Source of the DNA: Bolinopsis microptera | Taxonomy: Eukaryota; Ctenophora; Tentaculata; Lobata; Bolinopsidae | Assembly: GCF_026151205.1 (NCBI RefSeq) | Contig: NC_087074.1 | Coordinates: 14,407,167-14,471,166 of the forward strand | Direction: 5' to 3' | Length of the DNA stretch: 64,000 bases | Part shown: positions 24,080 to 53,900 of the stretch, piece after piece | How positions within the stretch are numbered: the stretch's first letter is position 1 | Layout: every line of letters begins with the position of its first letter | Position numbers and translations under genes: made by a program | Notes under the pieces: model-generated | Database searches by the model: none | What the model saw: the letters and a program-made list of their open reading frames with translations, nothing else | What the model was told of the DNA's origin: nothing

Positions 24080-26485
24080 GTAAAAATGGTTATTTGCCAG
24101 CATATATACAATTAATATGATTGATTGTGCACATACTTAAATAATTCATTTTATGGCCACATGTTTAGCTTATATGGGATATAAAATATTGAAGACTGAC
24201 ATAACCATTTAACTTGTTCATACTTAAACTTGTTAAACTGTTGTTTAACAAGAATTGCGCCCGTTTGTTCGACTGTTGGCGGACGCTAGATTTCCATCCA
24301 CTTGTACCAAATGTCAAAATTTTATCATACCTTGGCCTTCAATTAATTGTTTTGTTTCTGGTGTCACGTGAATTGGCTTAAAGTTAATTGACTAACTGTA
24401 TGGTTACAGAAACCCAAATAAAAGACAATCACAATGAAAGTATGATGTATGAAGTAGAGTTGACCGGACCAGCTTGATATAATTGTTAATTAGCTCAAGT
24501 TAGGAGTTGCCGCTAGTTTACTGATGTCTGTCGATGTTAGGGGATCAAAATATCTGTGCATCGAAGAAAATATGAATAAATAAAGTGAATGTTGTCCAGT
24601 CACAGCGCGCGTGGAGGTAACTTAATTAATTTTACGGATAAGCCGCGCGGCTGTATTCTCAAATATCGCGTGTAGATTTGAATGTTGTCCCTCCGCAAAC
24701 GTTAAGATCAAAGTTGCCATAACAACGCGCAACTCTGTGCCAGAGAAAATTAATACACGATATAATCTAGGTTGCGGTGAAATAGAAATGGATAAATAAG
24801 GAAGAGAACATATTATTATCATGTTGTGCTTAGAACTGGTCCCTCTCTTCCACTTTCAAATTAGCGGTTATACAAGGTTGAATAATGTTTTATAGTCATA
24901 CTTCAATGATACCAATTATTGGAATTCAAATCTCACTGTTCAGTATGTTAATTAGTTCAGTATGAATTATGATGGAGTGTTAATAACATTGTCTTGCTAG
25001 GTTAGAGTAAAGTAGAAGATTTGTAGATCTGTGAAGAAGGAAGTAATATCACTCAATCAGCAGCCGATGGTGTGCGTTATATTTCCAATTGGTGCTGACA
25101 AAATTGTGTTCACAGCTGCTCTGAAATCAGTTGATTATTCAATTAGTTGGTCATGTGATCGACAGATTATGTCACTAATGTAGGTTCAAAAAGGTATATT
25201 ATATTACTTCGGATCATAGGGTGACAGTCTTGTCGAGTAATGTTGAATTTACGAACCATTTCATGAATTGTGATGTGATAAAGTTAACTGTCAAGGAGGG
25301 CTGATTCGAGGACGGCATTTGTTTCTATAAGTGAGCCTTTGGCATGCAAGGAACTGTCGACAGTTGTGAATGTGAAAACTGGAAAAGAGCAAGTAACTGA
25401 TCTGAAAAGGAAATAAGTTGTGATTGTGTCGTGCGTAATATTACAGATACATTAAATCAGAAGTGTTGAAGCAATCCGGAATGAAAACTGGAGAAAACTT
25501 AGCATAATGCACATAATAATTGTATTATTATATGAAAAAGTATAAAAACACCTTCCCTTTTATGTAGATGTGGAGAATGAGGTGAGGTAATTAGCCTGAG
25601 AACAGTTGATGATGAGGTACAATAACCACACGCAGTTAACCACTCTTCTCAGTTTCCGTTAGCACGTGACAATCCCACGGGTAAATTGCTCGGACGAACC
25701 TCTTTGCTAACATATGATAATGCATCCAATCTTATCTGATAACTGAGGTATTACAGGGGTTTAAAGATATATAATGAGATAATAACGTGACATTTATGAC
25801 ATATTGAAAAGTATAAGGTAACAAAAGTATATCGATTAAATAGTTGCAGAAAAACAAATGTAAAGTTAGAGTGCAAGTTAAATGGAAAATGTAGTATGTG
25901 CATGTCATTTATTGCTTATGTGATAATAGAAATTGGTTAATTGTGGAGAGCATAAATTAAAGTAGATATAATTATATAAGATAATGTTGGTTAAATTGTA
26001 GAATAGTAGTAATATGTAATGTTATAATTGTTGTTATAGCTTGTGTCTTAAACTTCAGTGTCCTGTTGTACGTCTAACTTCCTGAAAAACGAATAATGTT
26101 AGGAGGAACTATGGTGCAATGAAATATTACTACTGATTTTTTTTGGCAATTTTAACCATAACGGTGAATAAGTAATTGAAACTAATTAGTATTATCAATG
26201 TGAAGCATTATTATAGGCGACAAAAAAGATGATTGCTTTAAAAACGCGACTGTATTACCTGTGTAATCAGAACCTCGAGTGTAAGAATGTAAGGCTGACT
26301 ACACTGTTCACACCGCAAGAAGTCACGTTACAACAGCACTGGTATGGTGTTGTGAAAGTTCTAGGATAGGAATGGGGTGAGTGGTGTTCGTGATTGTTAG
26401 AAATTATTGGTGACAGTAAATAAGAATTAGAGTGTAAGATTATTTATAAGTGCAAGGGCTAACATTCACAATGCCGAGGGTGAAA
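24080..26485. other. Left part of the RecQ intron and 3' flank of the Helitron
   Basis: No gene seen. It must contain the Helitron 3' terminus (minus-strand orientation), but I could not identify a CTRR end with a preceding hairpin. A 12-bp palindrome, AGCCGCGCGGCT, lies near 24,641-24,652. The sequence from about 25,800 to 26,485 is AT-rich, as expected for 3' UTR. Confidence 0.4.
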
Positions 26486-29400
26486 TTACAGTTCATGAGA
26501 TGGGGAATGCGCAGAGCCAATTTCTAAAATAACAGTATACCAATGAACGCCATGACCATCGTCTGTATTAACTATAAATAAGGTTGGGGGAAGGACCTGT
26601 GCGTTAGACTTAAACTTATCCCAAAGGTGTATGATGCGGGCTTTAAACGTAGACTTACTATGGGGAGGTTCTACATTGGAAAGATAATCATTTCTATGTA
26701 TAAATAATAAATTATGAAAATGGAGCGAGTAAATAGGAATAAGATCAAGGCAATTAGTTTCTGATAGGAATACGGGACTTGTGCCGGAAATGTTAAGAGC
26801 ATGATTACCTAGTGCACATATGTCTGTTTCAAAATCCGAGGCTCCCCAATAGTTACAGTCGAATAGTGATGCGTTAAACCATGACTGGCCTGTCGAAAGG
26901 AAGGACTTCAGTTTAGAAATGACTCTAGAGGCGATGTAACCACAACTGGAATTAACCTGGATATTAGCAAAGGAGGCATTGACTGAGAATCCCAAAGATT
27001 GTAATAATGTTGCAGTTTCTGCCGATTGAGGATGACCCAAAAAATCAATGACATGAGCCCTGCCAACAGTTTCAGAGATAACTTGTGGATAACTGGTAGG
27101 AATTTGCATAACCGGATTGTTGACCACATCTGCATTGCATAAAGGAGAAAGAGACTTTGTCGTTTTGAGATGTTTACTTAGAAGTGGACTTGCTGGAACT
27201 TGAGGAGAGTTTGGTAAAGGACGTTTGAGACCAGTAGAAGGCTGTGGAGACATCATAGAGAGCGGAGAATATAATGAGGTAGACTTGAAATGTTTCTTCG
27301 TAAGATCCGCTAATGGAGAAAAAGGAATGTGGCGTTTTAATACAGCAGGCGAGGTGATGATGGTCTTGTGCGGAGAAGATGAAACATTAAATGGTTTACT
27401 GCAGGGAAGAGTGATGGGATCAGATGGTATGGGACTCATTATTAAAACTTCTTCACAAGTAGCTGCAGGAACATTATGACCTTGGAGGACAACACAAAAT
27501 TTAGGAACATCACGTAGTCGAGCATACTCATCTACAACTTTCTTAGATGTGCGAATTTGCCTGGGGTCAAAAGATATGAAGTGCAGACCAAGGAGAGATG
27601 TTAACCTAGAGATAGCAGTGTATGCCATGCCTGACTGCCATGAGTGACCTTTTGATGCTCCAGCGAGGAATACATATGCTTTGTTCAAAGTCAAACCCTG
27701 AACTTTGTGAACAGTGCAGGCCCAAGAGAGAACCAATGGAATTTGATAGCGTTTGAGCCACGTTTTACTATTCTTTTTGGAGATAAATTCCTTTTCCACG
27801 GGCTTTATTGGAACAGTGCCAACCTTGGTGCAATTGTTAGCGCAGAAATTGTCACAATGATGTTTTATGGTTCTGCCGACGTTAACATCATCGAACATAA
27901 CATTAACGTGCCGAATGTCTCTAGCACTGCATGAACCGTCCTTGACAGTTTTGCCATTTTGGAGTTGGAAACTGTGGACAGTCCCAGTCACACCGTTTAC
28001 AATTTTGTCAGGGGTGTCGATATTAACACGCACCATGACCCTAGCTCCTGGACCAATATTTAATGAAGTTGGTAACCCAGCAGTTTTGTTCACATCGTCA
28101 GTCGTGTAATCTTGGGGTTTCTTGTTCATTTTGTCATAAACTTTGTCGCCAAAATTGGAAGATTTGTTGAAAACTTCATTGGAGAATCTGTCTTGAGCAA
28201 CAACGTTAACTATTGAAGAGGTTTTGCTCAATTCTTGAATGCACTCCTGATTGTGACTGTTGCACTGCCTATTGGTTGGATAAATGACCATTGAGTCCAT
28301 GATTTCAGCAGGTTTAGGCTGCTTTTCCACAACCCTTGAACTCAGTAACTCAATATCCTCTGGGGTGTGCTCTCCTACCCTAAGCCTGTGACAGAGTTCC
28401 GTGAACTGACTGTCACCCTTTGCTCTAACTATGTCCGTTAGCTCAGAAAATGTAATTGAATCCTTCCAAATGTTAGGCCCAAGAGCAGCGATACCTTTAG
28501 TCTCAAACACCATAGTTTGTTGAACCGCAGGAATCTGATGAAGGTCACCACTGAAGATAACGTTGATTCCCCCAAAGATTGTGGTTTCAGGAGGAACCCC
28601 AAATATTTCATTCAACCGTGAATTGATCTGGTTGAGGTTTGTGTTACCCACCATGGACACTTCATCTATAATGATATACCTTACATGCTGAAAGAACCTC
28701 CTCATCTGCATCTTCTTTTTTGGATTAAGTGGTTTAGGTTGGATTCTTCCGCCCTCTTGACAATCTAACTGAAGGAGTTGGTGAACAGTTTGACCGTCAA
28801 TGAGAGCTGCAGCAACACCAGTGCTAGCTGCAACAGCAACTTTTGGTTTAATAATACTGTCTGGGAACTTGCGTGAGATGCAGGAGCGCATACATTTTAT
28901 GAGGAAACTTTTACCTACTCCGCCAGCACCACTAACAAAATGAAGAAGCTGATTGACCTTGTGACCCTGTGCAACCCGGGAAGAGTGATGATCTACAATG
29001 TTGAAGAGTTCGCGCTGTTTATCATTGAGGCTGGTGACCATTTGCTGGTACTGTTCATCAGAGACAATGGGCTCCTTATAAGTGACGTTGAACACAGACT
29101 TCTCTTCCTCCTTCGATATATCAATACCTTCAAAGGGATGATTGAAGAGATGCCTACCATCAAGAACTTCCCTTTTATTTTCATCAAGAAGTGAATCTTT
29201 GATCTCTTGTCTTATTTCAGCTTCCATTTTTTGCAGAGTGTCGTCGTCAAATTGTTCAAACTTTTTGATGTTGGGTTTCATGGCATCAACATTCTCAGCA
29301 AATGACTCTTGATAAGTGGCAAAGGAGCCAATAAGATCAGCTTCCTTTCTCCACGGAAAGTACAAACACAGTTTCGAATAGTAATACTTTTCAGGCTCCT

Positions 29401-32400
29401 TTGTGCGAGACTTTTTATTACTTCTGATAACTTGAGGCGAGTCTCGCCTTATCATCTGGCCAAGATTAGATTTAAGAGTAATTACTTTGTGTCTGTTTTT
29501 AGAAGTTACGTTTCTGTCTAACCGAACGTATAAGGAAGCAAATTCAGCCCAGCAGATCGACTCTAAATCATCAGGACGATTGAGGTATTTGTCAAGAAGC
29601 GAGTTATGGAACACATCTTCTGAATCATCTGGCAGCTGTTGTAGGGTAGAACGAGGTTTGACAATGCCATGTCTATCCCCTGGCATGTCAGAAGGAATGA
29701 AAAGAACCGAAGGTTTGAAATGGGAGAGACTCAACTGGGGCAGACATCGAAAAATAGCTTCTTGGACGGAGACGGACCTAGAATTTAAAAAAGTATTACC
29801 AAGCTGTCTAAGGGCTTCTTTAGAGTTCTTATTGCTCGGCTGATCAATATTTTTAATAACATCTTTCAAAGCGTCACAAACCTCTTTTTCATTTTTGGTG
29901 GCATACGAAATAACGTAATTAACAACATCCCACGGACTCATACAAATTTGAACATCCATGTTCCCTTGTATAGCAAGGAGTAGAAGACGATTGTATGTAT
30001 TTACATTTTCGCTGCCAGGTTTACGTTTGTAGATGACATCTCTAGATCGCAGTTTAGGAGCCTCAACTTTGGGTTCACTGTCAGCAGACTTTTGGTTGTT
30101 TTTTGACTTTTTTGTCATCATTTTCTTGATTTCCTTAAAGACAATTTGTGTAACCTCAGAAAGTGTTTTGGGAAATCCGAAACGGCATATGTCTTTACCA
30201 CCTTTCTGACATGTTTTTGTATGGGAGTGCAGCTGAAGCTTGATAAGTTTGTGAACCTCGGGATCTTCTTCAAGGGTTGGATAATGAGTTGTAACATACT
30301 TATCAATAAATTCTATTACTTCCTCGATGGGACTCTCACCTGGTATAGGAGCACCTACTACTTTGAGAAGCATGTGAAGGTGAGGGGATCCACGGCCCCC
30401 AAACTCATTTCTACCAAAATGAGCCAAAGCCTCCCCCATGACACCCTGATCCTCAATCAGATAAGATAGAATTTTGCGGACGTAGCGGTCGAACATGCGC
30501 ACAGCAATGACAGGGTCCATTTTAATTAGCTCGTGCTTCCTAAACCAGCTTATGTCACTTAATAATTCATCCGTAGGTTCCTGACCCATTAATTTCAGAA
30601 TAGCCGGAACTGAGTAGACCAAGTCGTTAAAGGAGAATGTTAAGAACCAAGTAAAATTACCTAGCTGATTCACCATAGCTATACCATCGTTCTTGATCTT
30701 CTGTAAGTAAGCTGGAGTACCCTTCATATTTTTCATAAATTTATAAGCATCAATGTTACTTTGAAGCTGATCCATGTTGCACTGGTAAGATCTGAGGAGC
30801 CCTGCGGTAATGATTTGACCGTCCATAGTTCTAGAACCTTTGCGCATGTGAGTAGCAATGCAACTAAGTAGCTGATCACGTTCAATCCAGTTCTGCATGT
30901 AAAATATATACTCGGGGTTTTGAGCGTACTTTCTATGCTTAGAGTATAATTTGCTTTCAGCGTAATCTTTTAAGGAGAGTTTAGGGAGAAGTTTTTTCTT
31001 AATGAGATCATTTCTTTTGCTGCAGTTGAAGTGACCCTTACCCAGAGGAAATAGATCAGGAAATGACAAGGCTTCGTAGTCGGCATTACCAAGGAAAGGA
31101 ACAGGTTTACTACCCTGGCCAGGTGCAAAGTCCATGAAAGGTATTTTACCGTCATCAATGTTCTCAGCTGGATCAGATTTTTGGATGCAAGACTCAAAAG
31201 GCATATCACAGTACGTACCCTCGTTAGTGACATTTGATAAAATAAGATCTAATATTGACATAGAAACAACAACAGGGTCATCATTCATGTACGAGTCAAA
31301 GAACTGCTTATCACCATCGTAATTTTGTTTAATGAAATCATGGGAAAGTACAACATTCTTATAAAAAGGATTGTTTTTCTTAAGCCATACTAATAATGTT
31401 ATACATTTATCAGGATTAACAACATCAGACATTACAACAGACTTGTACTCAACCTTACGTTTTATACGGACAGCTAAAATACCAGACTCAGAAAGTTTAC
31501 GAGGGAGCTGCATGCAATTTCTGTCAGGTTGGATGGGGACATTTACAACAGGGCCTTTAATACAACTTTGACCACCAGCAGGAAGGGATAAAATTTTCAT
31601 AAATGGAATGATTTGGGATACTAAGCGGCATTCGGTGGGGTTTGGCTGAAGGGAGGATGGGAGATCACCTGATGCCAGGAACATTTCATTTACATCTATA
31701 GGGGAGAACTTGCCACGCTTTAAATAACTATTGCAACGTTTACAAATCCATTCATTATCTGCTTTAGTAACCGAAGGAATATTGAGCTTAAACTTAAGAG
31801 TATCCTTTGCCTTAACAACACCTTCACGGAAGAAAAGCTTGTGACATTTAAAACACGCATATTCTGGGTACTCTCGCATTTTAGCACGGAAAGTCTTCAC
31901 AATTTTGTCAGTCTTTGGATCAAATGAGGGTTTTGTAGGTGATTTAGAGTGATGCTCAAGGGGTACTGGAGAAGCCTTTGAAGCATTGGGTGGCACCACG
32001 GGCTGGTCCTCAACAGAAAAGTTATGCAGGCTAGAAGATTCTATGCGGGGTGACTGGCAAGCAGATGGTTCCGATGAAGCAGTAAAATGTTTATTTGGAG
32101 AGACAGTTTGGAGATGAGAAAATGGGCAGTTCTCCATAAAACCTGGGCAGAAGGTGCATTTATTAACGCAGTTAAGTTCAATTTCAGCTAATAATTTGGA
32201 GCCATGAGGAAAAGAAACAAAATCCCAATCCAAAGTAGAAATAGGCCTCTGTGGTACCTCGGGCTGGTCCTCAACAAAAAAGTTATGCAGGCTAGAATAT
32301 TCCATGGGGGGTGATTGGCAGGCTGATGATTCCGATGAAGTAGTAAAATGTTGATTTAGGGAGACACTTTGGAGATGAGAAAATGGGCAGTTCTCCATAA

Positions 32401-35400
32401 AACCTGGGCAGAAGGTGCATTTATCAACGCATGTAAGTTCAATTTCAGCTAATAATTTGGAGCCATGAGGAAAACAAACAAAGTCCCAATCCAAAGTAGG
32501 AATAAGCCTCGTTGGTACTGGAGAATTATGCGAATCAGTTTTTGATTTAAGAGCTGTGTAGTTTGGAGGTGTTTGGCATGAAAAGGTATTAGAAGATGAA
32601 GGTGAACCTAAACAGGATTTAGCAGCACAGGTTATATTAATATTAGTCTCAGTAGATACCTGTGCCCGATAAGATGACGGTGAGTCATGCGGTGGAGTAG
32701 AGTGTAGTTTTGGTAGAGATTGAGAAGAAGTTCTGTATTCATTTAAAGGAGATGCAAGTTTATTATTTCTATTAACACTAACTGTATGAAATGATATGTC
32801 GTGGGGTGAATAAGCAGTTTTAAGTGATGTAGCTGGAGACCGTGAATGATTGTGATTAAAAAGTGCAGAGTAGGTTGGTGGAGTTTTGTAACCGCTCATA
32901 TTGGATGGGCTATGTTGACGAAGGAGAACAGGAGAGCAAATTTTCTGAGATTTACTGTTCCTAGCTTTATTGAGAGAAATACGAGTGCGTCGCTTTTCTT
33001 TGGCCATTTTCTTTTGTTCATCTGTCATTGCTGCGCGCCTGGCCTTTTCCTTTAAACGCTTTTGCTCTTTTTTTGCATTGCGTTCAGGGGTTGTCATAGA
33101 TGCCATAGTTGACGACTTTCGAGATCGTTCTTTTTGTTGAAGTTTTGTGAGCTCTGTGGTGGTCATAGAGTTCCGAGCTTGAGACATTTGAGATCGTTGT
33201 TTTTGTTGGAGTTGTGTGAGCTCTGTGGTGGTCATAGTTGCTCGCTTTTGAGACTTTCGATGACAATCATACTGAAGATGTTGTGAACGCTGTGGGCTTG
33301 TCATAAAAGCACGATGCTGCTGCATTCGAATACGAGCAGAATATCGATCTTTATCTTTTTGAAGCTCTTTATCAGCCATATTAGAAAGAGTGTCACATTT
33401 CATAGAGGAATCCGTTTCCTTCTTCTTTTTAACAGTTGAAGCATAAGAGTCATTTTCGGTATATGGGGTCAAAAGAGTGGGACTTTCTACAGAGCTACCA
33501 TTGTGACAGTCATAATATGGTCTATACTCCTGTGATTCGTGCAATTCAGTGTCATCAATGAAATTGTCCATATCATCTGGCGAAGCTGTACAATTATGGG
33601 AGTTGTCAGACTCTTGGGATACATGACCTTCTTCATCTTGAGCTTCATTGTCGATGAAAGGATTGTTATGTCGACCGCCACCATACATTAGTGAACGAGA
33701 TTGTATAGTGGTGTTACTAACGTTGTAGGAAATAGATGGTGCATATACAGAAGATGATGAGGACACCCCGGTCCCCTCAGTCATATCAGTGATAAGGGGT
33801 TCCGTAGGATGAGTGGCAGATAATGACACCCCGGTCCCGTCAGTCATATCGGGGGTGCAGGGTTCCATAGGATGAGGAAGAGATGATGACACCCCGGTCC
33901 CTTCAGTCTTATCGGGGATGCAGGGAAGCAGTGGCAGACGGTGACAGCCGGTAAGTGTTATAAAAGGTGCAGGGATCCGAAGAAAAAGTGGCAGATGACA
34001 AAGCTCAGTAGAAATAGGGTTGTGGCTCACAATAGGTGTTTGAAGAACGGAGGATGATGATGACAAATGTATCCGGTTATTCTCATCAGATGGTGACACC
34101 CCTTCAGTCTTATCGAGGGTGGTGGGCTTTAATGAAGCAGGGCCGGATGACGACACCCCTTCAGTCTTATCGAGGGTGGTGGGCTTTAATGAAGCAGGGC
34201 CGGATGACGACACCCCTTCAGTCTTATCGAGGGTGGTGGGCTGTAATGAAACAGGGCCGGATGAGGACACCCCTTCAGTCTTATCGAGGGTGGTGGGCTT
34301 TAATGAAACAGGGCCGGATGAGGACACCCCTTCAGTCTTATCGAGGGTGGTTGGCTTCGATGAAACAGGGCCGGATGACGACACCCCTTCAGTCTTATCG
34401 AGGGTGGTGGGCATTAAAGAAACAGAGCCGGATGAGGACACCCCTTCAGTCTGATGGAGGGTTTTGGGCTTTAATGAAACAGGGTCGGATGACGACATCC
34501 CTTCAATAGATCTCGGCTTAAGCGTTCTGAAAGTAAGACTGAAACGGTAGCCTTGGCATACACCAGAGGTACTTCCGTTTGCTATACGATGGAAGTACGC
34601 TAACTGTGACTCAGGATCCATAACAAACAAAGAATTAGACAGAAGCTGCTGACTGAAGGAAGGGCGGTTCCTTTTACACGTGGCAAAGTCCATGTACCGT
34701 GTAGCACCAATTGATAGAGTCGCTATTTTGGCAGATTTGTCCAAGTGCCGTTCATCGTCCTTATGATATGGTAAGATGGTAGAGGAGTCTTTATAAAAGT
34801 TGACCAATATGCTGTTAAAGTTAGCTGACAATGTAACATTAACAATGGACAAAATATTTTGTAGTATAGGCTCTGAGTGAATGGGGATAGGATTTAGATG
34901 TTTAGTAGCCCTGTTGTAAACATATCTATCTTTGCCAAAAAGAAGAACCTGCGATGAGTTCATACCCTGTCTAATAAAAAGACCTTGTTTCACTTTAGAC
35001 AGTAAAAGTTCCTCAATATGTTTTGCGATATGCACAGGGAGTAGATCTTTGTAATAAGCCAGCCTTGTATAAAGCCATTTCGGACACTTCGACGAAATAT
35101 ATGAGGCAGGTGCAGGTGTTGGTGCAGCAGGAGCAGGTGCAGCTGGAACATGAACTGGTGTGGGTGAAGCAGGAGTAGATGCAGGCGTATCAGGCGCAGG
35201 TGCAGCATGAGCTGGTTTTGGTGCAGCAGGTGTAGCAGGAGCAGATGGAACAGGTGCAGGAGAAGCATGTGCAGCAGATGAAAAAGGTGCAGCAGATGGA
35301 ACAGGTGCAGCAGATAGTGAAGGTGCAGCAGATAGAACAGGTGCTGGAAGAGCAGGTGCAGCAGATGGAACAGGTGCAGCAGATGGTGAAGGTGCAGCAG

Positions 35401-36433
35401 ATGGAACAGATGGAACAGGTGCAGCAGATGGTGGAGGTGCAGCAGATGAAACAGGTGCAGGAGAAGCAGGTGCAGCAGATGGAACAGGTGCAGCAGATGG
35501 TGGAGGTGCAGCAGATGGAACAGATGGAACATGTGCAGGAAGAGCAGATGCAGCAGATGGAACAGATGGAACAGGAGCAGCAGATGGTGGAGGTGCAGCA
35601 GATGGAACATGTGCAGGAAGATCAGATGCAGCAGATGGAACAGGTGCAGCAGATGGTGGAGGTGCAGCAGATGAAACAGATGGAACAGGTGCAGGAAGAG
35701 TAGGTGCAGCAGATAGAACAGGTGCAGGAGAAGTAGTAGATGGAAAATCATCCGGAGTTAAGTCCCACAAGCTATCAGACCGATCAGAAAATTGTGAGGG
35801 TAAAGGGGACACAGGGATCAGTGAACTGTCTACTAGATAACGGAGATGAGTGGGGATACTAGCAAAACCATTAAAATAGCAGTGAATGTTAGCCTTAACA
35901 ATCTTTTTAAACAAAATGTTACCTGTGTAGCTGAAATGTAAATTATCCGTACGCTGTATGTAATTGAAAGCATCATTAGGAGTAATGTGAAAAGGGTTAG
36001 AAACTAATACAAAATTAAATTTATTACGTAAAGAAACCAATTCAGCGTTAAAAGCATTAATTTTAGAAAGAAAATGTGACCTTTGACAATTAGGATAATC
36101 AAAACGAGGCAAAACAATATTCACAAAAACAATAGCCTTCGGAAACTTATGATGCACACAGTTTATAAGGTCAGTAAACATTTCTGCAAACGTTACACTA
36201 TCACACGAACACCTACCTTTTATATTGTTAGTTCCCACCATGACGTAGACAGCATCTATCTGCGGCAGTTTCCGAGGATTGATGTTGGTAACCTCGTCTG
36301 CCACGTGCTGGGTGTCCATACCACGGCAAGAAAAAACATGTAGCCCACGGTATGATTTCGGATATAAACGTGTAGGTTCTTCGGGACGTTCGGAATCAAT
36401 GTATTTAACCATTGAATCTCCTAGAACCACAAC
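26486..36433 (-). CDS. Helitron polyprotein, exon 3: SGNH, AlkB, Rep, Pif1 helicase, Cys/His module
   Basis: Enters after TTTTGTTCAG in phase 0 and encodes residues 300-3,614 of the spliced protein. Domains: SGNH hydrolase, 300-490 (GDS with S306, GTNN with N368, D462/H465); Pro/Ala/Ser linker, about 524-744; AlkB-type 2OG-Fe(II) oxygenase, 748-940 (H856-x-D858, H914, R929/R935); 19-residue repeats, 944-1,080; two 88-residue Cys-rich repeats, 1,603-1,778; DUF6570-like CxxC/CxxC region, 1,818-1,978; HUH Rep, 2,111-2,484 (H2317-L-H2319; Y2472 and Y2476); Pif1 helicase, 2,757-3,257 (GAGGVGKS with K2807, DEVSM at D2889); C-terminal module with C3463 and H3596-W. Rep would nick and join single strands and the helicase would unwind. 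The oxygenase, esterase and C-terminal roles are inferred. Confidence 0.85.
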   Translation of the reverse strand, partial: VVVLGDSMVKYIDSERPEEPTRLYPKSYRGLHVFSCRGMDTQHVADEVTNINPRKLPQIDAVYVMVGTNNIKGRCSCDSVTFAEMFTDLINCVHHKFPKAIVFVNIVLPRFDYPNCQRSHFLSKINAFNAELVSLRNKFNFVLVSNPFHITPNDAFNYIQRTDNLHFSYTGNILFKKIVKANIHCYFNGFASIPTHLRYLVDSSLIPVSPLPSQFSDRSDSLWDLTPDDFPSTTSPAPVLSAAPTLPAPVPSVSSAAPPPSAAPVPSAASDLPAHVPSAAPPPSAAPVPSVPSAASALPAHVPSVPSAAPPPSAAPVPSAAPASPAPVSSAAPPPSAAPVPSVPSAAPSPSAAPVPSAAPALPAPVLSAAPSLSAAPVPSAAPFSSAAHASPAPVPSAPATPAAPKPAHAAPAPDTPASTPASPTPVHVPAAPAPAAPTPAPASYISSKCPKWLYTRLAYYKDLLPVHIAKHIEELLLSKVKQGLFIRQGMNSSQVLLFGKDRYVYNRATKHLNPIPIHSEPILQNILSIVNVTLSANFNSILVNFYKDSSTILPYHKDDERHLDKSAKIATLSIGATRYMDFATCKRNRPSFSQQLLSNSLFVMDPESQLAYFHRIANGSTSGVCQGYRFSLTFRTLKPRSIEGMSSSDPVSLKPKTLHQTEGVSSSGSVSLMPTTLDKTEGVSSSGPVSSKPTTLDKTEGVSSSGPVSLKPTTLDKTEGVSSSGPVSLQPTTLDKTEGVSSSGPASLKPTTLDKTEGVSSSGPASLKPTTLDKTEGVSPSDENNRIHLSSSSSVLQTPIVSHNPISTELCHLPLFLRIPAPFITLTGCHRLPLLPCIPDKTEGTGVSSSLPHPMEPCTPDMTDGTGVSLSATHPTEPLITDMTEGTGVSSSSSVYAPSISYNVSNTTIQSRSLMYGGGRHNNPFIDNEAQDEEGHVSQESDNSHNCTASPDDMDNFIDDTELHESQEYRPYYDCHNGSSVESPTLLTPYTENDSYASTVKKKKETDSSMKCDTLSNMADKELQKDKDRYSARIRMQQHRAFMTSPQRSQHLQYDCHRKSQKRATMTTTELTQLQQKQRSQMSQARNSMTTTELTKLQQKERSRKSSTMASMTTPERNAKKEQKRLKEKARRAAMTDEQKKMAKEKRRTRISLNKARNSKSQKICSPVLLRQHSPSNMSGYKTPPTYSALFNHNHSRSPATSLKTAYSPHDISFHTVSVNRNNKLASPLNEYRTSSQSLPKLHSTPPHDSPSSYRAQVSTETNINITCAAKSCLGSPSSSNTFSCQTPPNYTALKSKTDSHNSPVPTRLIPTLDWDFVCFPHGSKLLAEIELTCVDKCTFCPGFMENCPFSHLQSVSLNQHFTTSSESSACQSPPMEYSSLHNFFVEDQPEVPQRPISTLDWDFVSFPHGSKLLAEIELNCVNKCTFCPGFMENCPFSHLQTVSPNKHFTASSEPSACQSPRIESSSLHNFSVEDQPVVPPNASKASPVPLEHHSKSPTKPSFDPKTDKIVKTFRAKMREYPEYACFKCHKLFFREGVVKAKDTLKFKLNIPSVTKADNEWICKRCNSYLKRGKFSPIDVNEMFLASGDLPSSLQPNPTECRLVSQIIPFMKILSLPAGGQSCIKGPVVNVPIQPDRNCMQLPRKLSESGILAVRIKRKVEYKSVVMSDVVNPDKCITLLVWLKKNNPFYKNVVLSHDFIKQNYDGDKQFFDSYMNDDPVVVSMSILDLILSNVTNEGTYCDMPFESCIQKSDPAENIDDGKIPFMDFAPGQGSKPVPFLGNADYEALSFPDLFPLGKGHFNCSKRNDLIKKKLLPKLSLKDYAESKLYSKHRKYAQNPEYIFYMQNWIERDQLLSCIATHMRKGSRTMDGQIITAGLLRSYQCNMDQLQSNIDAYKFMKNMKGTPAYLQKIKNDGIAMVNQLGNFTWFLTFSFNDLVYSVPAILKLMGQEPTDELLSDISWFRKHELIKMDPVIAVRMFDRYVRKILSYLIEDQGVMGEALAHFGRNEFGGRGSPHLHMLLKVVGAPIPGESPIEEVIEFIDKYVTTHYPTLEEDPEVHKLIKLQLHSHTKTCQKGGKDICRFGFPKTLSEVTQIVFKEIKKMMTKKSKNNQKSADSEPKVEAPKLRSRDVIYKRKPGSENVNTYNRLLLLAIQGNMDVQICMSPWDVVNYVISYATKNEKEVCDALKDVIKNIDQPSNKNSKEALRQLGNTFLNSRSVSVQEAIFRCLPQLSLSHFKPSVLFIPSDMPGDRHGIVKPRSTLQQLPDDSEDVFHNSLLDKYLNRPDDLESICWAEFASLYVRLDRNVTSKNRHKVITLKSNLGQMIRRDSPQVIRSNKKSRTKEPEKYYYSKLCLYFPWRKEADLIGSFATYQESFAENVDAMKPNIKKFEQFDDDTLQKMEAEIRQEIKDSLLDENKREVLDGRHLFNHPFEGIDISKEEEKSVFNVTYKEPIVSDEQYQQMVTSLNDKQRELFNIVDHHSSRVAQGHKVNQLLHFVSGAGGVGKSFLIKCMRSCISRKFPDSIIKPKVAVAASTGVAAALIDGQTVHQLLQLDCQEGGRIQPKPLNPKKKMQMRRFFQHVRYIIIDEVSMVGNTNLNQINSRLNEIFGVPPETTIFGGINVIFSGDLHQIPAVQQTMVFETKGIAALGPNIWKDSITFSELTDIVRAKGDSQFTELCHRLRVGEHTPEDIELLSSRVVEKQPKPAEIMDSMVIYPTNRQCNSHNQECIQELSKTSSIVNVVAQDRFSNEVFNKSSNFGDKVYDKMNKKPQDYTTDDVNKTAGLPTSLNIGPGARVMVRVNIDTPDKIVNGVTGTVHSFQLQNGKTVKDGSCSARDIRHVNVMFDDVNVGRTIKHHCDNFCANNCTKVGTVPIKPVEKEFISKKNSKTWLKRYQIPLVLSWACTVHKVQGLTLNKAYVFLAGASKGHSWQSGMAYTAISRLTSLLGLHFISFDPRQIRTSKKVVDEYARLRDVPKFCVVLQGHNVPAATCEEVLIMSPIPSDPITLPCSKPFNVSSSPHKTIITSPAVLKRHIPFSPLADLTKKHFKSTSLYSPLSMMSPQPSTGLKRPLPNSPQVPASPLLSKHLKTTKSLSPLCNADVVNNPVMQIPTSYPQVISETVGRAHVIDFLGHPQSAETATLLQSLGFSVNASFANIQVNSSCGYIASRVISKLKSFLSTGQSWFNASLFDCNYWGASDFETDICALGNHALNISGTSPVFLSETNCLDLIPIYSLHFHNLLFIHRNDYLSNVEPPHSKSTFKARIIHLWDKFKSNAQVLPPTLFIVNTDDGHGVHWYTVILEIGSAHSPSHEL
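31998..32525 (-). repeat. 264-bp (88-codon) coding tandem duplication
   Basis: Two nearly identical units, 32,262-32,525 and 31,998-32,261, each encode 'STLDWDFV.FPHGSKLLAEIEL' and then a C-x3-C-x2-C-x6-C-x3-H cluster ('KCTFCPGFMENCPFSH'). The spacing looks like a small zinc-binding unit. High identity between the copies indicates a recent in-frame duplication. Confidence 0.8.
34094..34500 (-). repeat. 57-bp coding minisatellite in the Helitron ORF, 7 copies
   Basis: Seven in-frame copies of a 57-bp unit encode a 19-residue repeat of the form LDKTEGVSSSGPVSLKPTT, located just after the AlkB domain. The copies differ by a few substitutions. It probably acts as a flexible spacer. Long open frames on the opposite strand here are shadows of the repeat. 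Confidence 0.9.
35101..35760 (-). repeat. Pro/Ala/Ser-rich coding low-complexity linker
   Basis: Imperfect short repeats of the type 'AAPPPSAAPVPS' encode about 220 residues between the SGNH and AlkB domains. The opposite strand gives a shadow ORF of Gln/Val repeats. The likely role is an unstructured linker. Confidence 0.9.
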
Positions 36434-36607
36434 CTGAACAAAATTGATTTGTCAATAATCGTGTAATGTAAAAACATAAGTAGAAGTAAGAGTGTAAGTT
36501 GTAATAACTAATACTTCTACATCTGTTGGGGTTTACTGTAAAAAAATTTAGAAAATGTGGCTAGACATGTACATATTATAGTAAAATCATAACTTTTATT
36601 TACTCAC
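36434..36607 (-). other. Intron 2 of the Helitron gene (174 bp)
   Basis: The donor AAAAAC|GTGAGT (starting 36,607) and acceptor TTTTGTTCAG|GTTGTG (ending 36,434) are both strong and keep phase 0. The unspliced reading frame stops at TAA (36,596-36,598), four codons after the donor, so splicing is required to reach the polyprotein. The intron starts about 60 bp after the 2A codon pair. Confidence 0.7.
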
Positions 36608-37080
36608 GTTTTTATCCGTAAAGACGAACTCCTCAGGAGAGAAGCTGGCGGTGTTGCACTTAAACTGTACGGGTCCCGGGTTAGTTTCCACATCGCCTGA
36701 TAGTATAAGGCACATCCTGGACCAAACAACAGAAGAAGACAAATCACCAGCCATAGCGTTGACGAGCAGTTCAAGAACCAGGATGGCAGGACTAGATGGC
36801 AATAGGCCAGCATCCTCGAGGTACTGCAACTGAGCGCTAGCAGCTTTAACTGTTGATGTCAAATAAATTAATTGAGCCGAAACCAGATTATAAATTAAAT
36901 TTAATGTTGACATGATGTTAAGGTTGCAACAACTTTGAAAAATGAACTCCAAATAAAATTCAACACTCAACACAGCTCCTGAAGCCAAAACCAAGGTGTT
37001 CTGTGGTTGAAGAGCGACCACGAACAGCTGTTGAGGTTTCATTATAACCGTCCACAGATTGGGTGAAGAGAGCAGACGAC
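36608..37080 (-). CDS. Helitron gene exon 2: hydrophobic leader ending in a 2A motif
   Basis: Bounded by the acceptor TATTTATAG|GTCGTC and the donor AAC|GTGAGT. It enters with 2 nt that complete the split glycine codon of exon 1 and leaves in phase 0. It encodes residues 142-299. The first part is hydrophobic with segments that could span a membrane. It ends in CLILSGDVETNPGP, a perfect match to the 2A consensus DxExNPG|P, with skipping predicted between G277 and P278. About 22 residues separate the 2A proline from the SGNH domain. 2A sequences are known from picorna-like viruses and from some LINEs; I know of none in Helitrons. Confidence 0.75.
36671..36697 (-). promoter_or_regulatory. 2A ribosome-skipping motif (GDVETNPG|P)
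   Basis: Nine codons read G-D-V-E-T-N-P-G-P. All residues required for co-translational skipping (D, E, N, P, G, P) are present, preceded by the usual hydrophobic/Ser run (CLILS). Predicted outcome: release of the upstream leader and continued translation of the polyprotein from the final proline, without a peptide bond. Confidence 0.85.
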
Positions 37081-37202
37081 CTATAAATAGGATTGCTATT
37101 TATTATACAATGATATCTTCAACAAACAATCTAATCGAGCTCATAAAAGCTTAAGGAAACGAAACGTAGCAGATGTGCAATTTCAACCTTCAACAAACTC
37201 AC
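37081..37202 (-). other. Intron 1 of the Helitron gene (122 bp)
   Basis: Donor TATG|GTGAGT (starting 37,202), acceptor TATTTATAG|GTC (ending 37,081). Joining gives phase 1 continuity and opens the frame into exon 2 without a stop. The unspliced frame stops at 37,183-37,185. Confidence 0.65.
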
Positions 37203-37626
37203 CATAACCAACAAGAACTCCAGTGTTCATCGACGACGCAAACATCAGCACAACCAGGACAGAAGTAGCCGCTAAAGCTCCCCGCACGAAGAATGTTCTC
37301 GTGAAGGTGTAGAATGAGCTGACACCGTAATCAGAGTGCTTGTAAACGAACGTCAGTCGATTGAATAATAACCAGATATGTACATTATGACAAAAGTAAT
37401 ATTGCACATTAACCAAACTCCTAGAGGTAAAATCTATTGCAGGCAATAGTACTTGGTTTCCAAAGTAACACAATGCCATACAAAACATATCAAAACAATC
37501 CAAGAAAAACCCTGTAACAGCCACATTTACCTCGTCAAAACAAATGTCATATTTAATTAATTTATCTGGTGCTAAGTCGGTGGAACATCCCATAACAAAT
37601 AAAATGATTAACAACTTGTACTTCAT
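37203..37626 (-). CDS. Helitron gene exon 1: signal-peptide-like, multi-hydrophobic leader
   Basis: Starts at the ATG at 37,624-37,626 with MKYKLLIILFVMGCS, a good signal peptide or signal anchor. Further hydrophobic segments follow near residues 37-62 ('VAVTGFFLDCFDMFCMALCY') and 117-140 ('ALAATSVLVVLMFASS'). It ends in phase 1 at TAT G|GTGAGT. It encodes the first 141 residues of a predicted 277-residue leader released by the 2A motif in exon 2. No family is recognised. The leader would be expected in the ER/secretory membrane system, which is unusual for a transposon product. Confidence 0.6.
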
Positions 37627-37737
37627 TAAATTACGGTGAAAAGTTTGATAATTTAAATTAAAAAGAATGTAAACGTAACGTGGCGTGTAATTTGCGGAAA
37701 GATTAAACTATGTTGCGTGGTGATTAAATGGCATTAA

Positions 37738-37749
37738 CGTGACGTCACG
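37738..37749. promoter_or_regulatory. CRE-type palindrome upstream of the Helitron gene
   Basis: CGTGACGTCACG, a 12-bp perfect palindrome containing the full CREB/ATF site TGACGTCA (37,740-37,747), lies about 115 bp upstream of the exon 1 ATG. No clear TATA box was seen. It is a plausible promoter element but unproven. Confidence 0.4.
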
Positions 37750-38094
37750 AGAGTCCAAGTAGACCCATAGAGCCATAGTACGTCTGTAGGAAGTACAATT
37801 CATAAGTGATTAAATTTCTGCGCGCGCGCGCGGTTTTTTCGTTGCATAGTAACGAACGGAAGCAAGGAACACGACATATATTTGACCCACCTACCGCAAT
37901 CCCCAAAATCCACGTTTTTCTGCAAAAACGTCCATTCGTAACCTTCCACTTTATATTTTTTCAAAATGGTGGATGGAAAAAATTTCTTTTTGTGCCGGGT
38001 TATCAGCATTTAAACCATCTACCGACTTAACTAAAGTTAACTGTGTACGGAACTCATTATTTACCAATTACCAGTGACATTTTCTTAATTTCAG
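37750..38094. other. Right part of the RecQ intron
   Basis: Contains an alternating (GC)n tract (37,820-37,832) and ends in the polypyrimidine tract and acceptor TTCTTAATTTCAG|GCA of RecQ exon B. The Helitron 5' end should lie here or shortly before, but no boundary is obvious. Confidence 0.4.
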
Positions 38095-50942: not shown

Positions 50943-53900
50943 TCACACACCATCAGTTCCATACCGGTTTTGAGCTCTTAGAAGTGACTGTTTAAGTAAA
51001 TTCTTGACAGATCCGCATGTAGAGGTGAAATTTAACGGGCCAACTTTACGGAATTCGTTCCAAAGCCATGCAGATTTATAAATAAATTGATTAGTTGGAG
51101 AGGGTGTAATGAACAGATTATCTTTCCTATTTGATATGTTGAATAAGTAGTATAACGAAATTGGTACTCGTGACTTAATGATCTTGAAAAGTTCCATTAA
51201 ACAACGGTATCGGTACAGGTTCTCTGTAACAAGTAATTCATGTTTTGTGAATAGAGGCTTAGTGGACTCTTTAACATAGAATTCAGATCCTAGACGTTGA
51301 GAATTAATTGGTCTTGCTCTAGCACATGTCTTGAATTTGTCTACATAAGCTTCATAGTCTCCAAATAGAATCCTGATACACTTCTTTTGAGTAATAAATA
51401 GCGGTTTTAACTGATTATTGGGAATACCTCCCCAGACAGAAATAGCATAACCTAGGTGTGATTCAAAGAGGGAATGATATATTTGCTTATATAGTGATTC
51501 TGGTAAGCATTTCTTAATACGGTAGATACGTCCACAAGCACTTCTTAGTTTCTTGTTGAGGGATGAAATATGTGGTTTCCAGCTCAATTTATCGTCCATG
51601 ATTACTCCGAGAAATTTTGTCTGACTTACACGTTTAATTATTTTGTTATTATTGGACAAGTTTTGGCTATTTATATCGGCATCTAATTCGTTATTATTAC
51701 GTTTAGAGGGAGAAAAATACATGTAACAACACTTCTTTACATTAATGTGCAGTAGGTTAACTCCCATATACTTGTTTACGGCCTGTAGTACTTCATTAGC
51801 CAATTCGTATACTTTATTTCTCGAATCGGCAGCGACAAATATATTAGTATCGTCTGCAAATAAGACAAATTTACCCTTTTTAGTTATATTGCATATGTCA
51901 TTGATGTACAGTAGGAAAAGTAGAGGTCCTAATACACTACCCTGAGGGACCCCGAATTCAACCGGTAATTCATCAGATTTGGTATCCAAAACGTTTACAA
52001 ATTGTTTCCTATTAGACAAATAACTAGAGATAAGATTCAGAGCATTTCCTCTTATGCCATAGTTGTTTAACTTTGTAGTTAGTTTACAGTGGTCTAGAGT
52101 GTCAAAGGCTTTTGAGAGATCGATAAAGACCCCTAGGACATGTTGCTTTTTACTAATTAACGATTCTATATGTTCTACAGAGTAGTTCAGTGCATGGCTG
52201 GTGGAGTGTCCTTTTCTAAGCCGAACTGGTTTTCATGTATTATACCCCTTGGAAGTAAGGAAACTATAGAGCCGCTTATATATTAACTTTTCTAGAATTT
52301 TCCCGAATACAGGTAGAGTTGATACTGGTCTATAGTTTTCTAAAAGCTGTTCATCTTCTTTTTTGTAAATGGGGCTGATTCTCCCCAGTTTTTAATTCAT
52401 CGGGAAAGTGGCCTTCTTGCATGCATTTATTAAAGTATCTAGCTAAGTACGGTGCAGTAATTTGACACGACTTCTTGATCACATGAATAGGTATGTCACT
52501 AGATTTTCCCGTTTTTTAGTTCGTTTATGATCTCTTTAATCTCAATACAGTCACAATCACAAAGAAAAATACTGGACGTAACTGATGTGGGCAGGTAATC
52601 AGTAAATGACGGCAGGGAATTTATTCTTAAGAAGTCACCAGAGTAAGCTTCGTTCAAGTTAGCTGCAATAGAGGCAAAGTATTTATTGAACTCATTTGCA
52701 ATTACACGCCGATTAATCACACGCTCGTTATTTATCACAAAGTTAGGTTTAATCTCACGTCTCTTCTTACCACGCAGTTCATTAATTATCTGCCAAGTTT
52801 TCTTACTATCTCCAGCGCATTCTGTAATCTTAACACCATGATACTTACGTTTGCAGAATTAATAAGGTGGTTTAATAACTTCCGGTGTGCCTTAAATTCT
52901 TCATGACGTGTTACTTTATTTGTACAATTAAAACAAAGGGTAAGACAGTCTGCATGGTTGGTTGAAGAGGCGTTGAGGCATTTCTTCTTAACTGCCTTTT
53001 TCCACAGGTCATAAAGCTCATGTTTTCTATTTATAGAGGCAATCAGGCCTGATGTAATCCATGGATTATTCTTAGCAGTACGTTTAGAACACTTAGGCTG
53101 GTTTAGTTTACATGCACTGTCTAGTTGATGATTAAATACAGTGAAAAAAATTACTGAAGTCTTCTGGTGGATCACTAGTTAATTCACTGTCTAGTACTTC
53201 CACAAATCTGTCCACATTTTTTGCACAGTAGTCATAGTACTGGAAATAGTTTTGTTCATGAACCTCAGTACTGACTAGGGGTGAGTTGAATATGTTAAAT
53301 ACAGCATGGTGGTGACTGATGCAGGTACTAATTGTTCCAGAGCAGATAGAGTTCTCTATGTTGTTGGTGAGTATGTTGTCAATGCATGATTCGTTACATC
53401 CTGGTTTATGATGCGTGGAAGTAGAAATAAGTGGTGATAAACCTAGACCTAGAATAAGGTTTTCAAAGTCTTGAACAAGTTTACTGTTTTCATCATGGAG
53501 ATTAATGTTAAAGTCACCTAGTATGTAAACATTCTTTTTTGGGCATGATTCAATAATTTTTCTAAGTTCATTTAGTGCCTCTGAGGAGTCCCCACTAGGA
53601 GGACGGTACAGTACTCCTACATGTACAGGTTCATCATGTTGAATAGTAATAAATAGGGTTTCAAGATTTTTGGTTACCCATGATAATTCTTCGTTTACAA
53701 CTCCGTTTAAGTTCGTCCTTTAAGTACAATGCTACTCCACTTCCCTTTGCTTTATTGATATGTTTGTCCTGATAGAAACAATTGTACCCCTCTAGATGGT
53801 AGACAGTGCTTTCCTCTATTCCAATATTGGTTTCAGCAAGTCCAATAATTTTAAATTTTTCGGCTAATCGGTTTAGTTCCATGCTAAAGGCATCAAAATT

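Follow-up and report, generated by a model that had tools for sequence, protein, structure and literature searches.

A Helitron2-type transposon of Bolinopsis microptera with an intact 2A core between a predicted membrane-type leader and an esterase–AlkB–Rep–helicase frame

The window, that is, the whole 64,000-nucleotide stretch of Bolinopsis microptera DNA that was analysed, contains a Helitron2-type rolling-circle transposon of approximately 13.7 kb, which carries one three-exon gene. The first two exons encode a leader and a 2A core, and the third encodes an enzyme with esterase, AlkB-like, Rep and helicase domains. In the direction of the gene, the features are as follows.

24247..37983, minus strand: whole element, ~13.7 kb, with the 5' end A/TTTTTTCCATCCACC at 37983-37982 and the 3' end ...TTCTTGTT at 24247
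37969..37979, minus strand: 5' arm of the asymmetric inverted repeat, 11 bases, TTTCCATCCAC, complement of the 3' arm
37203..37626, minus strand: exon 1 (leader), ATG start, phase 1 end, 28 database relatives
37081..37202, minus strand: intron 1, 122 nt, GTGAGT...ATAG, with an in-frame stop, sites kept in 9/9 copies
36608..37080, minus strand: exon 2, with the remainder of the leader, the 2A core and 21 further codons, phase 0 end
36671..36697, minus strand: 2A core GDVETNPGP, residues 270-278, intact in 9/9 longer family A copies
36434..36607, minus strand: intron 2, 174 nt, GTGAGT...TCAG, sites kept in 9/9 copies
26486..36433, minus strand: exon 3, enzyme frame of 3,315 aa plus stop
35921..36427, minus strand: SGNH/GDSL esterase (Pfam PF13472, E 5.2e-8)
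34526..34924, minus strand: AlkB-like 2OG-Fe(II) oxygenase (Pfam PF13532, E 8.2e-21)
30365..30964, minus strand: Helitron Rep (HUH) (Pfam PF14214, E 5.3e-22)
28409..29029, minus strand: PIF1-type helicase (Pfam PF05970, E 9.3e-22; Walker A GAGGVGKS)
26489..27256, minus strand: C-terminal domain, with an invariant Cys and a His-Trp in the alignment of families A and B
24291..24301, minus strand: 3' arm of the inverted repeat, GTGGATGGAAA, ~44 bases inward of the 3' end, with a hairpin after it

The 5' boundary was located by comparison of 12 loci (the window, the eight other longer copies and three shorter ones; one locus has two T fewer), in which similarity ends at one identical base and the flanks are unrelated. 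The base 5' of the insertion is A in all 12 loci. The 3' end, ...TTCTTGTT, is common to the three copies inspected, where the 3' neighbours are A, A and G. The terminal inverted repeats are asymmetric (TTTCCATCCAC and GTGGATGGAAA), and a fold with RNA parameters, which covered the 3' end, gives the hairpin. The HUH Rep and the PIF1-type helicase, the two coding hallmarks of Helitrons, share one frame. In the available portions of PMC5148889 and PMC4067079, the Helitron2/Helentron group is described with the same combination of Rep and helicase in one frame, and the Helitron2 pattern includes such ends: asymmetric terminal inverted repeats, a 3' arm set back from the terminus by tens of bases, and a hairpin on the 3' side.

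Three other assignments were rejected. The 5' TC and 3' CTRR ends of the canonical Helitron1 class are absent, the ends here being A/TTTTTTCC and TTCTTGTT. No Pfam match to an AP endonuclease was found up to an E of 1 across the 3,315 aa of exon 3, so that by coding content, which in Helentrons includes a C-terminal AP endonuclease, the element is not a Helentron. A non-LTR retrotransposon with a 2A was set aside because the Pfam scan of the three exons gave no match to a reverse transcriptase up to an E of 1. The leader is situated inside the element, with its start codon approximately 360 bases inward of the 5' end.

When joined, exons 1 to 3 form one open frame of 3,614 codons (141 + 158 + 3,315). 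Both introns of the window copy contain in-frame stops, and a single frame therefore requires splicing, which the splice-site sequences predict to occur in cells. The original prediction had proposed GTGAGT donors, AG acceptors and a joined frame of this length, and recomputation of the coordinates, frame and length agrees with it throughout. Absent from that prediction were the SGNH esterase and the AlkB-like dioxygenase that open exon 3, and the Helitron2-type ends.

The GDS, GTN and DxxH blocks of the esterase begin at exon 3 residues 5, 67 and 163. Comparison with the structures of PAF acetylhydrolases gave a weak match (best E 0.0042). Long repeats rich in Pro, Ala and Ser lie between the SGNH and AlkB domains and again after AlkB, as judged by eye, and their lengths vary among copies (window 34990-35757 and exon 3 of L052 and L053). 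Exon 3 also matches DUF6570 in Pfam. The Rep domain contains the HLH and YVISY motifs, in the forms SPHLHM and YVISYATK, which we take to be the HUH motif and the tyrosine motif of Rep, respectively. In the C-terminal domain, a Q...SCGYIA segment and an HW pair are conserved between families A and B, and by visual comparison of sequence the domain appears to resemble a papain-type cysteine protease; it has no Pfam match, its best sequence match in the PDB has an E of 0.47, and a model computed from two sequences (mean pLDDT 34) is too poor for use. Helitrons with deubiquitinase domains like those of herpesvirus tegument proteins have been published (PMC9741609, available in part), a possible parallel to the C-terminal domain here.

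The leader begins with MKYKLLIILFVMGCST, a signal-peptide-like sequence by Kyte-Doolittle hydropathy, and contains four separate regions with a 19-residue hydropathy above 1.6, including a hydrophobic segment in exon 1 at approximately residues 112-130. Both features that had been claimed for the upstream part, a signal-peptide-like start and several hydrophobic segments, are thus present on this scale, and the hydropathy points to a membrane location for the leader, the topology of which would follow these segments. A Pfam scan of the two leader exons gave no match up to an E of 1, and the exon 1 profile found no homologue among solved structures up to an E of 10. An AlphaFold model of the leader relative P0025 (22 alignment rows) has a mean pLDDT of 58 and is poor. 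The leader may have a part in transposition.

2A-like sequences are present in non-LTR retrotransposons. Here, the complete core GDVETNPGP claimed for exon 2 was found at residues 270-278, in frame and with the form D(V/I)ExNPGP that defines 2A (StopGo) sequences; the expected skip lies between G277 and P278. The genome was scanned for the codons of GD-x-E-x-NPGP, with the third residue restricted to NTN codons and the reversed pattern as a control. There are 13 sites in 264.65 Mb and none for the control, and 11 of the 13 are inside these Helitrons, so the motif occurs more than by chance. The skip site is flanked by the methionines M264, six residues before the 2A, and M307, and the serine of the esterase GDS block is residue 306. 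The segment from the skip site to the catalytic serine thus contains no methionine, and production of the complete esterase–AlkB–Rep–Hel enzyme requires translation through the 2A; a leaderless start is disfavoured on the same ground. The two remaining motif sites, L075 (C5:12669507) and L080 (C10:9263260), read GDIETNPGP and share an upstream sequence unlike the Helitron leader. Downstream of the 2A in L075 is a frame that by eye resembles a reverse transcriptase.

The pattern search for the motif recovered nine longer copies of family A, to which the window copy belongs. A search with the esterase alone, which is blind to the motif, returned 17 rows, 12 of them near full length; it recovered the same nine copies and two more on contig C9, and 11 of the 12 near-full-length rows have an upstream 2A. 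The twelfth (C13:1151337) is decayed, with six internal stops, and the five remaining rows comprise a second row on C13, three fragments and one non-LTR ORF. The exon 2 search gave 13 rows (the nine longer copies, two second pieces of them and two fragments on C5). Among the 37 rows of the exon 1 search, which extended to an E of 10, those of family A, family B and a third family were followed, and L041, L042, L044, L047 and L049 were inspected by eye.

In all nine longer copies, the nine codons of the 2A core show synonymous third-base changes only, and all four splice-site words are retained. Divergence from the window copy over the eight comparisons is 3-8% in the exons, 6-13% in intron 1 and 2-19% in intron 2. 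A 5-nt indel distinguishes intron 1 in seven of these comparisons, and in six of them intron 2 shows several indels and 15-19% divergence, the other two values being 2% and 6%. Averaged over related pairs and given without a significance test, dN/dS among the nine copies is 0.18 in exon 1, 0.37 in the part of exon 2 that precedes the skip, 0.33 in the remaining part of that exon, of just 21 codons, and 0.31 over codons 1-206 of exon 3. Five copies show no indel in the leader, and the other four have frameshifts or a deletion there: two extra bases in exon 1 (L012), loss of 188 bases including the start (L015), one extra base in exon 2 (L016), and the gain of one base and loss of another in exon 2 (L017). 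Such damage is as would be expected of ageing transposon copies. Three of the nine have an open exon 3 of more than 3,300 codons. Short pieces of exon 1 without a 2A occur at C6:10583535, C10:4983623, C10:902235 and C3:20141133, and short pieces of exon 2 that end before the motif at two places on C5. None of these leader fragments has the motif in the genome scan, and they look like truncated derivatives.

The layout is conserved in a second, diverged family. Family B consists of two loci on contig C9, which share 97% identity with one another across 2,172 bases. Its identity to the window copy is 29% in exon 1 (one locus compared), 40-41% in the esterase, 71-72% in the AlkB domain and 57% in Rep. 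The same three exons are present, with phase 1 and phase 0 introns at corresponding places, and the 5' end likewise begins ATTTTTTCC. Exon 3 is open in one locus (3,226 aa), and in the second a stop interrupts the esterase. At the equivalent site, the 2A of both copies reads SGDIELNPGP, and the differences from family A (V to I and T to L) fall where the D(V/I)ExNPGP consensus, as used in the available text of PMC4981915, allows variation. The check on other genomic copies that the original prediction had called for therefore turned out favourably for the NPGP residues, which are kept in all nine longer copies of family A and in the two of family B, and for the introns, with splice sites retained in 9/9 copies and positions and phases shared across families; it turned out less so for the leader, which is interrupted by frameshifts or a deletion in 4/9.

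A third family, represented by L040 (C4:14140047) and L039 (C7:5775875), has the leader exons and lacks NPGP by eye, and its leader appears by the same inspection to run on toward the stretch that precedes Rep, with neither SGNH nor AlkB in between. A decayed 2A in these two loci was considered and rejected, since the stretch does not align and L040 has a stop in it. The Rep match at C4:14140047 consists of two pieces approximately 1.3 kb apart, which are 78% and 82% identical to the window, and no match is listed for C7:5775875 in the Rep search. The identity of the C4 Rep makes the third family look like a derivative of a family A-like element that may later have lost the 2A, SGNH and AlkB together. 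More distant Rep families, at 52% identity (C6:8448565, C10:5713211 and C10:9081213), have no leader or SGNH match nearby in the exon 1 and esterase searches.

Relatives of the leader were also found in protein databases. The exon 1 profile search returned 28 proteins, 26 of them from ENA, none of which has a precomputed Pfam domain. In P0021, P0024, P0025 and P0027, inspected by eye, exon 1 continues into exon 2 in one frame across the place of intron 1, which tentatively supports the exon 1–exon 2 join, the source contigs being either genomic or transcript; these frames end ahead of any 2A. The exon 2 profile search gave 11 relatives, of which eight (P0035-P0039 and P0042-P0044) have an intact 2A in the leader context. 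In P0040 and P0041, GDLEINPY, adjoining a deletion, replaces the NPGP-type 2A. P0045 is of a different kind, a short protein from an NCBI source with two tandem 2A cores near its start. The search with the esterase–AlkB part returned five database proteins.

These observations are best explained, with a probability of about 0.78, by one spliced mRNA that would give rise to a membrane-type leader and, by 2A skipping, to a separate enzyme. The three-exon gene would be spliced and its mRNA read as a single frame, and at GDVETNPGP the ribosome would most likely omit the Gly-Pro bond. The 277-residue leader would then be released, with its signal-peptide-like start and several hydrophobic segments, and translation would continue to yield a separate SGNH esterase–AlkB–Rep–Hel protein with an N-terminal proline, free to enter the nucleus. 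A signal peptide before a DNA-processing enzyme would route it to the endoplasmic reticulum, and it is the 2A that would make such a layout workable. Both the skipping and the nuclear entry of the enzyme are predictions from the sequence.

Skipping may nevertheless be incomplete, because 2A reactions can be inhibited during translocation of the upstream protein into the endoplasmic reticulum (PMC2978324, available in part). We hold as a tentative variant that the element uses both outcomes, with part of the product skipping to give a cytosolic or nuclear enzyme and part remaining fused to the leader and anchored in the endoplasmic reticulum; since this reading belongs within the best explanation, the odds of the two overlap. 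Besides the inhibition of 2A by upstream signal sequences, it is favoured by the hydrophobic residues directly before the 2A in family B, by the binding of a non-LTR retrotransposon esterase to membranes (phospholipids and liposomes, in the available text of PMC3905857) and by the sea urchin NOD-like-receptor 2A signal sequences, which behave in this way in cells (PMC4981915, likewise available in part). In the published cases, however, the 2A is itself the N-terminal signal, whereas here it lies at residue 270. A further step along the same line is doubtful: skipping would yield a membrane-anchored companion and a replicase-helicase, and incomplete skipping would tether a fraction of the enzyme, with the esterase acting on lipids. 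If true, rolling-circle transposition would have a membrane-bound stage, like positive-strand RNA viruses.

The remaining alternatives dispense with skipping or with the leader. That GDVETNPGP is retained for some other reason at the protein level is unlikely. Upstream context does matter for 2A activity, and chimeras are often inactive, as reported in the available part of PMC12846837, but variation between the families is confined to the positions free in the known 2A consensus, and without skipping the layout would leave a signal peptide on a DNA enzyme. It is quite unlikely that the enzyme initiates at an internal methionine, with the upstream exons forming a separate gene or an untranslated leader and NPGP surviving as an old retrotransposon relic. 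The called starts of P0002 to P0004 do lie at methionines inside exon 3, and in P0005, a related esterase–AlkB–Rep–Hel protein, the called methionine precedes the esterase serine, so that some relatives may start there; L075, a non-LTR element of the same genome, also has a 2A. In the window copy, however, the first methionine of exon 3, M307, directly follows the catalytic Ser 306. The synonymous changes of the motif in the nine longer copies, its presence in family B and dN/dS values well below 1 in the leader exons also speak against this reading. Helitrons are known to capture genes (PMC4021074, available in part), but it is very unlikely that the leader is a captured host gene without a working part in the transposon. 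It stands behind an identical 5' end in all nine longer family A copies (the 3' end was seen in three), which excludes capture by a single copy, and behind a similar 5' end, ATTTTTTCC, in family B; moreover, the absence of a precomputed Pfam domain from all 28 profile-search relatives argues against a host origin.

RNA viruses commonly use 2A skipping and cellular genes rarely do, according to the available text of PMC12846837, and the cellular cases given in that of PMC4981915 are non-LTR retrotransposons and sea urchin receptors. The 2As of non-LTR retrotransposons have the same D(V/I)ExNPGP core (PMC4981915), and L075 is one such in this genome; here, by contrast, there is no reverse transcriptase in exon 3 by Pfam, and the 2A closes a 277-residue leader. 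In the sea urchin receptors, a signal-type sequence combined with a 2A sets the destination of the downstream protein, and 2A signal sequences can divide a protein between the cytosol and the secretory path (PMC4981915). There, the 26-residue 2A is the signal, whereas here a separate signal-like start lies approximately 260 residues upstream. An SGNH hydrolase is likewise associated with the fish Helitrons that carry texim, in the portion of PMC4021074 available, but texim is a neighbouring gene, whereas the SGNH domain here is fused in frame to AlkB–Rep–Hel behind the 2A. Relative to the Helitron2/Helentron group, the element is distinguished by its spliced 2A leader and by SGNH and AlkB before Rep, and from Helentrons by the lack of an AP endonuclease in Pfam. 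Although 2A in non-LTR elements and sea urchin receptors and SGNH near fish Helitrons are already known, a search of titles and abstracts, of partial coverage, found no 2A in a Helitron among the matches listed, and the Helitron 2A layout is apparently new.

If the preferred reading is true, a single frame of a DNA transposon would yield two proteins with separate destinations, the idea of a membrane component in rolling-circle transposition would have a rationale open to testing, and the element would supply a natural example of a 2A active behind a signal peptide, a position in which engineered 2As can fail (PMC2978324, in the part available). It would also hint at parts common to Helitrons and non-LTR elements, namely the 2A, SGNH and AlkB. 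In a non-LTR ORF1 of this genome (L070, C7:1130210-1130632), AlkB is followed by SGNH upstream of a frame that by eye resembles an AP endonuclease. With L070 (AlkB and SGNH) and L075 (2A), all three parts are represented among the non-LTR elements of this genome, and an exchange of parts between these and the Helitrons is plausible. AlkB-like domains are very common in the repeats of this genome, with 138 of the 150 rows scored (of 731 candidates) outside the 11 Helitron copies. Elsewhere in the window, at 50943-52232 on the minus strand, an open frame of 429 aa resembles a non-LTR reverse transcriptase by eye.
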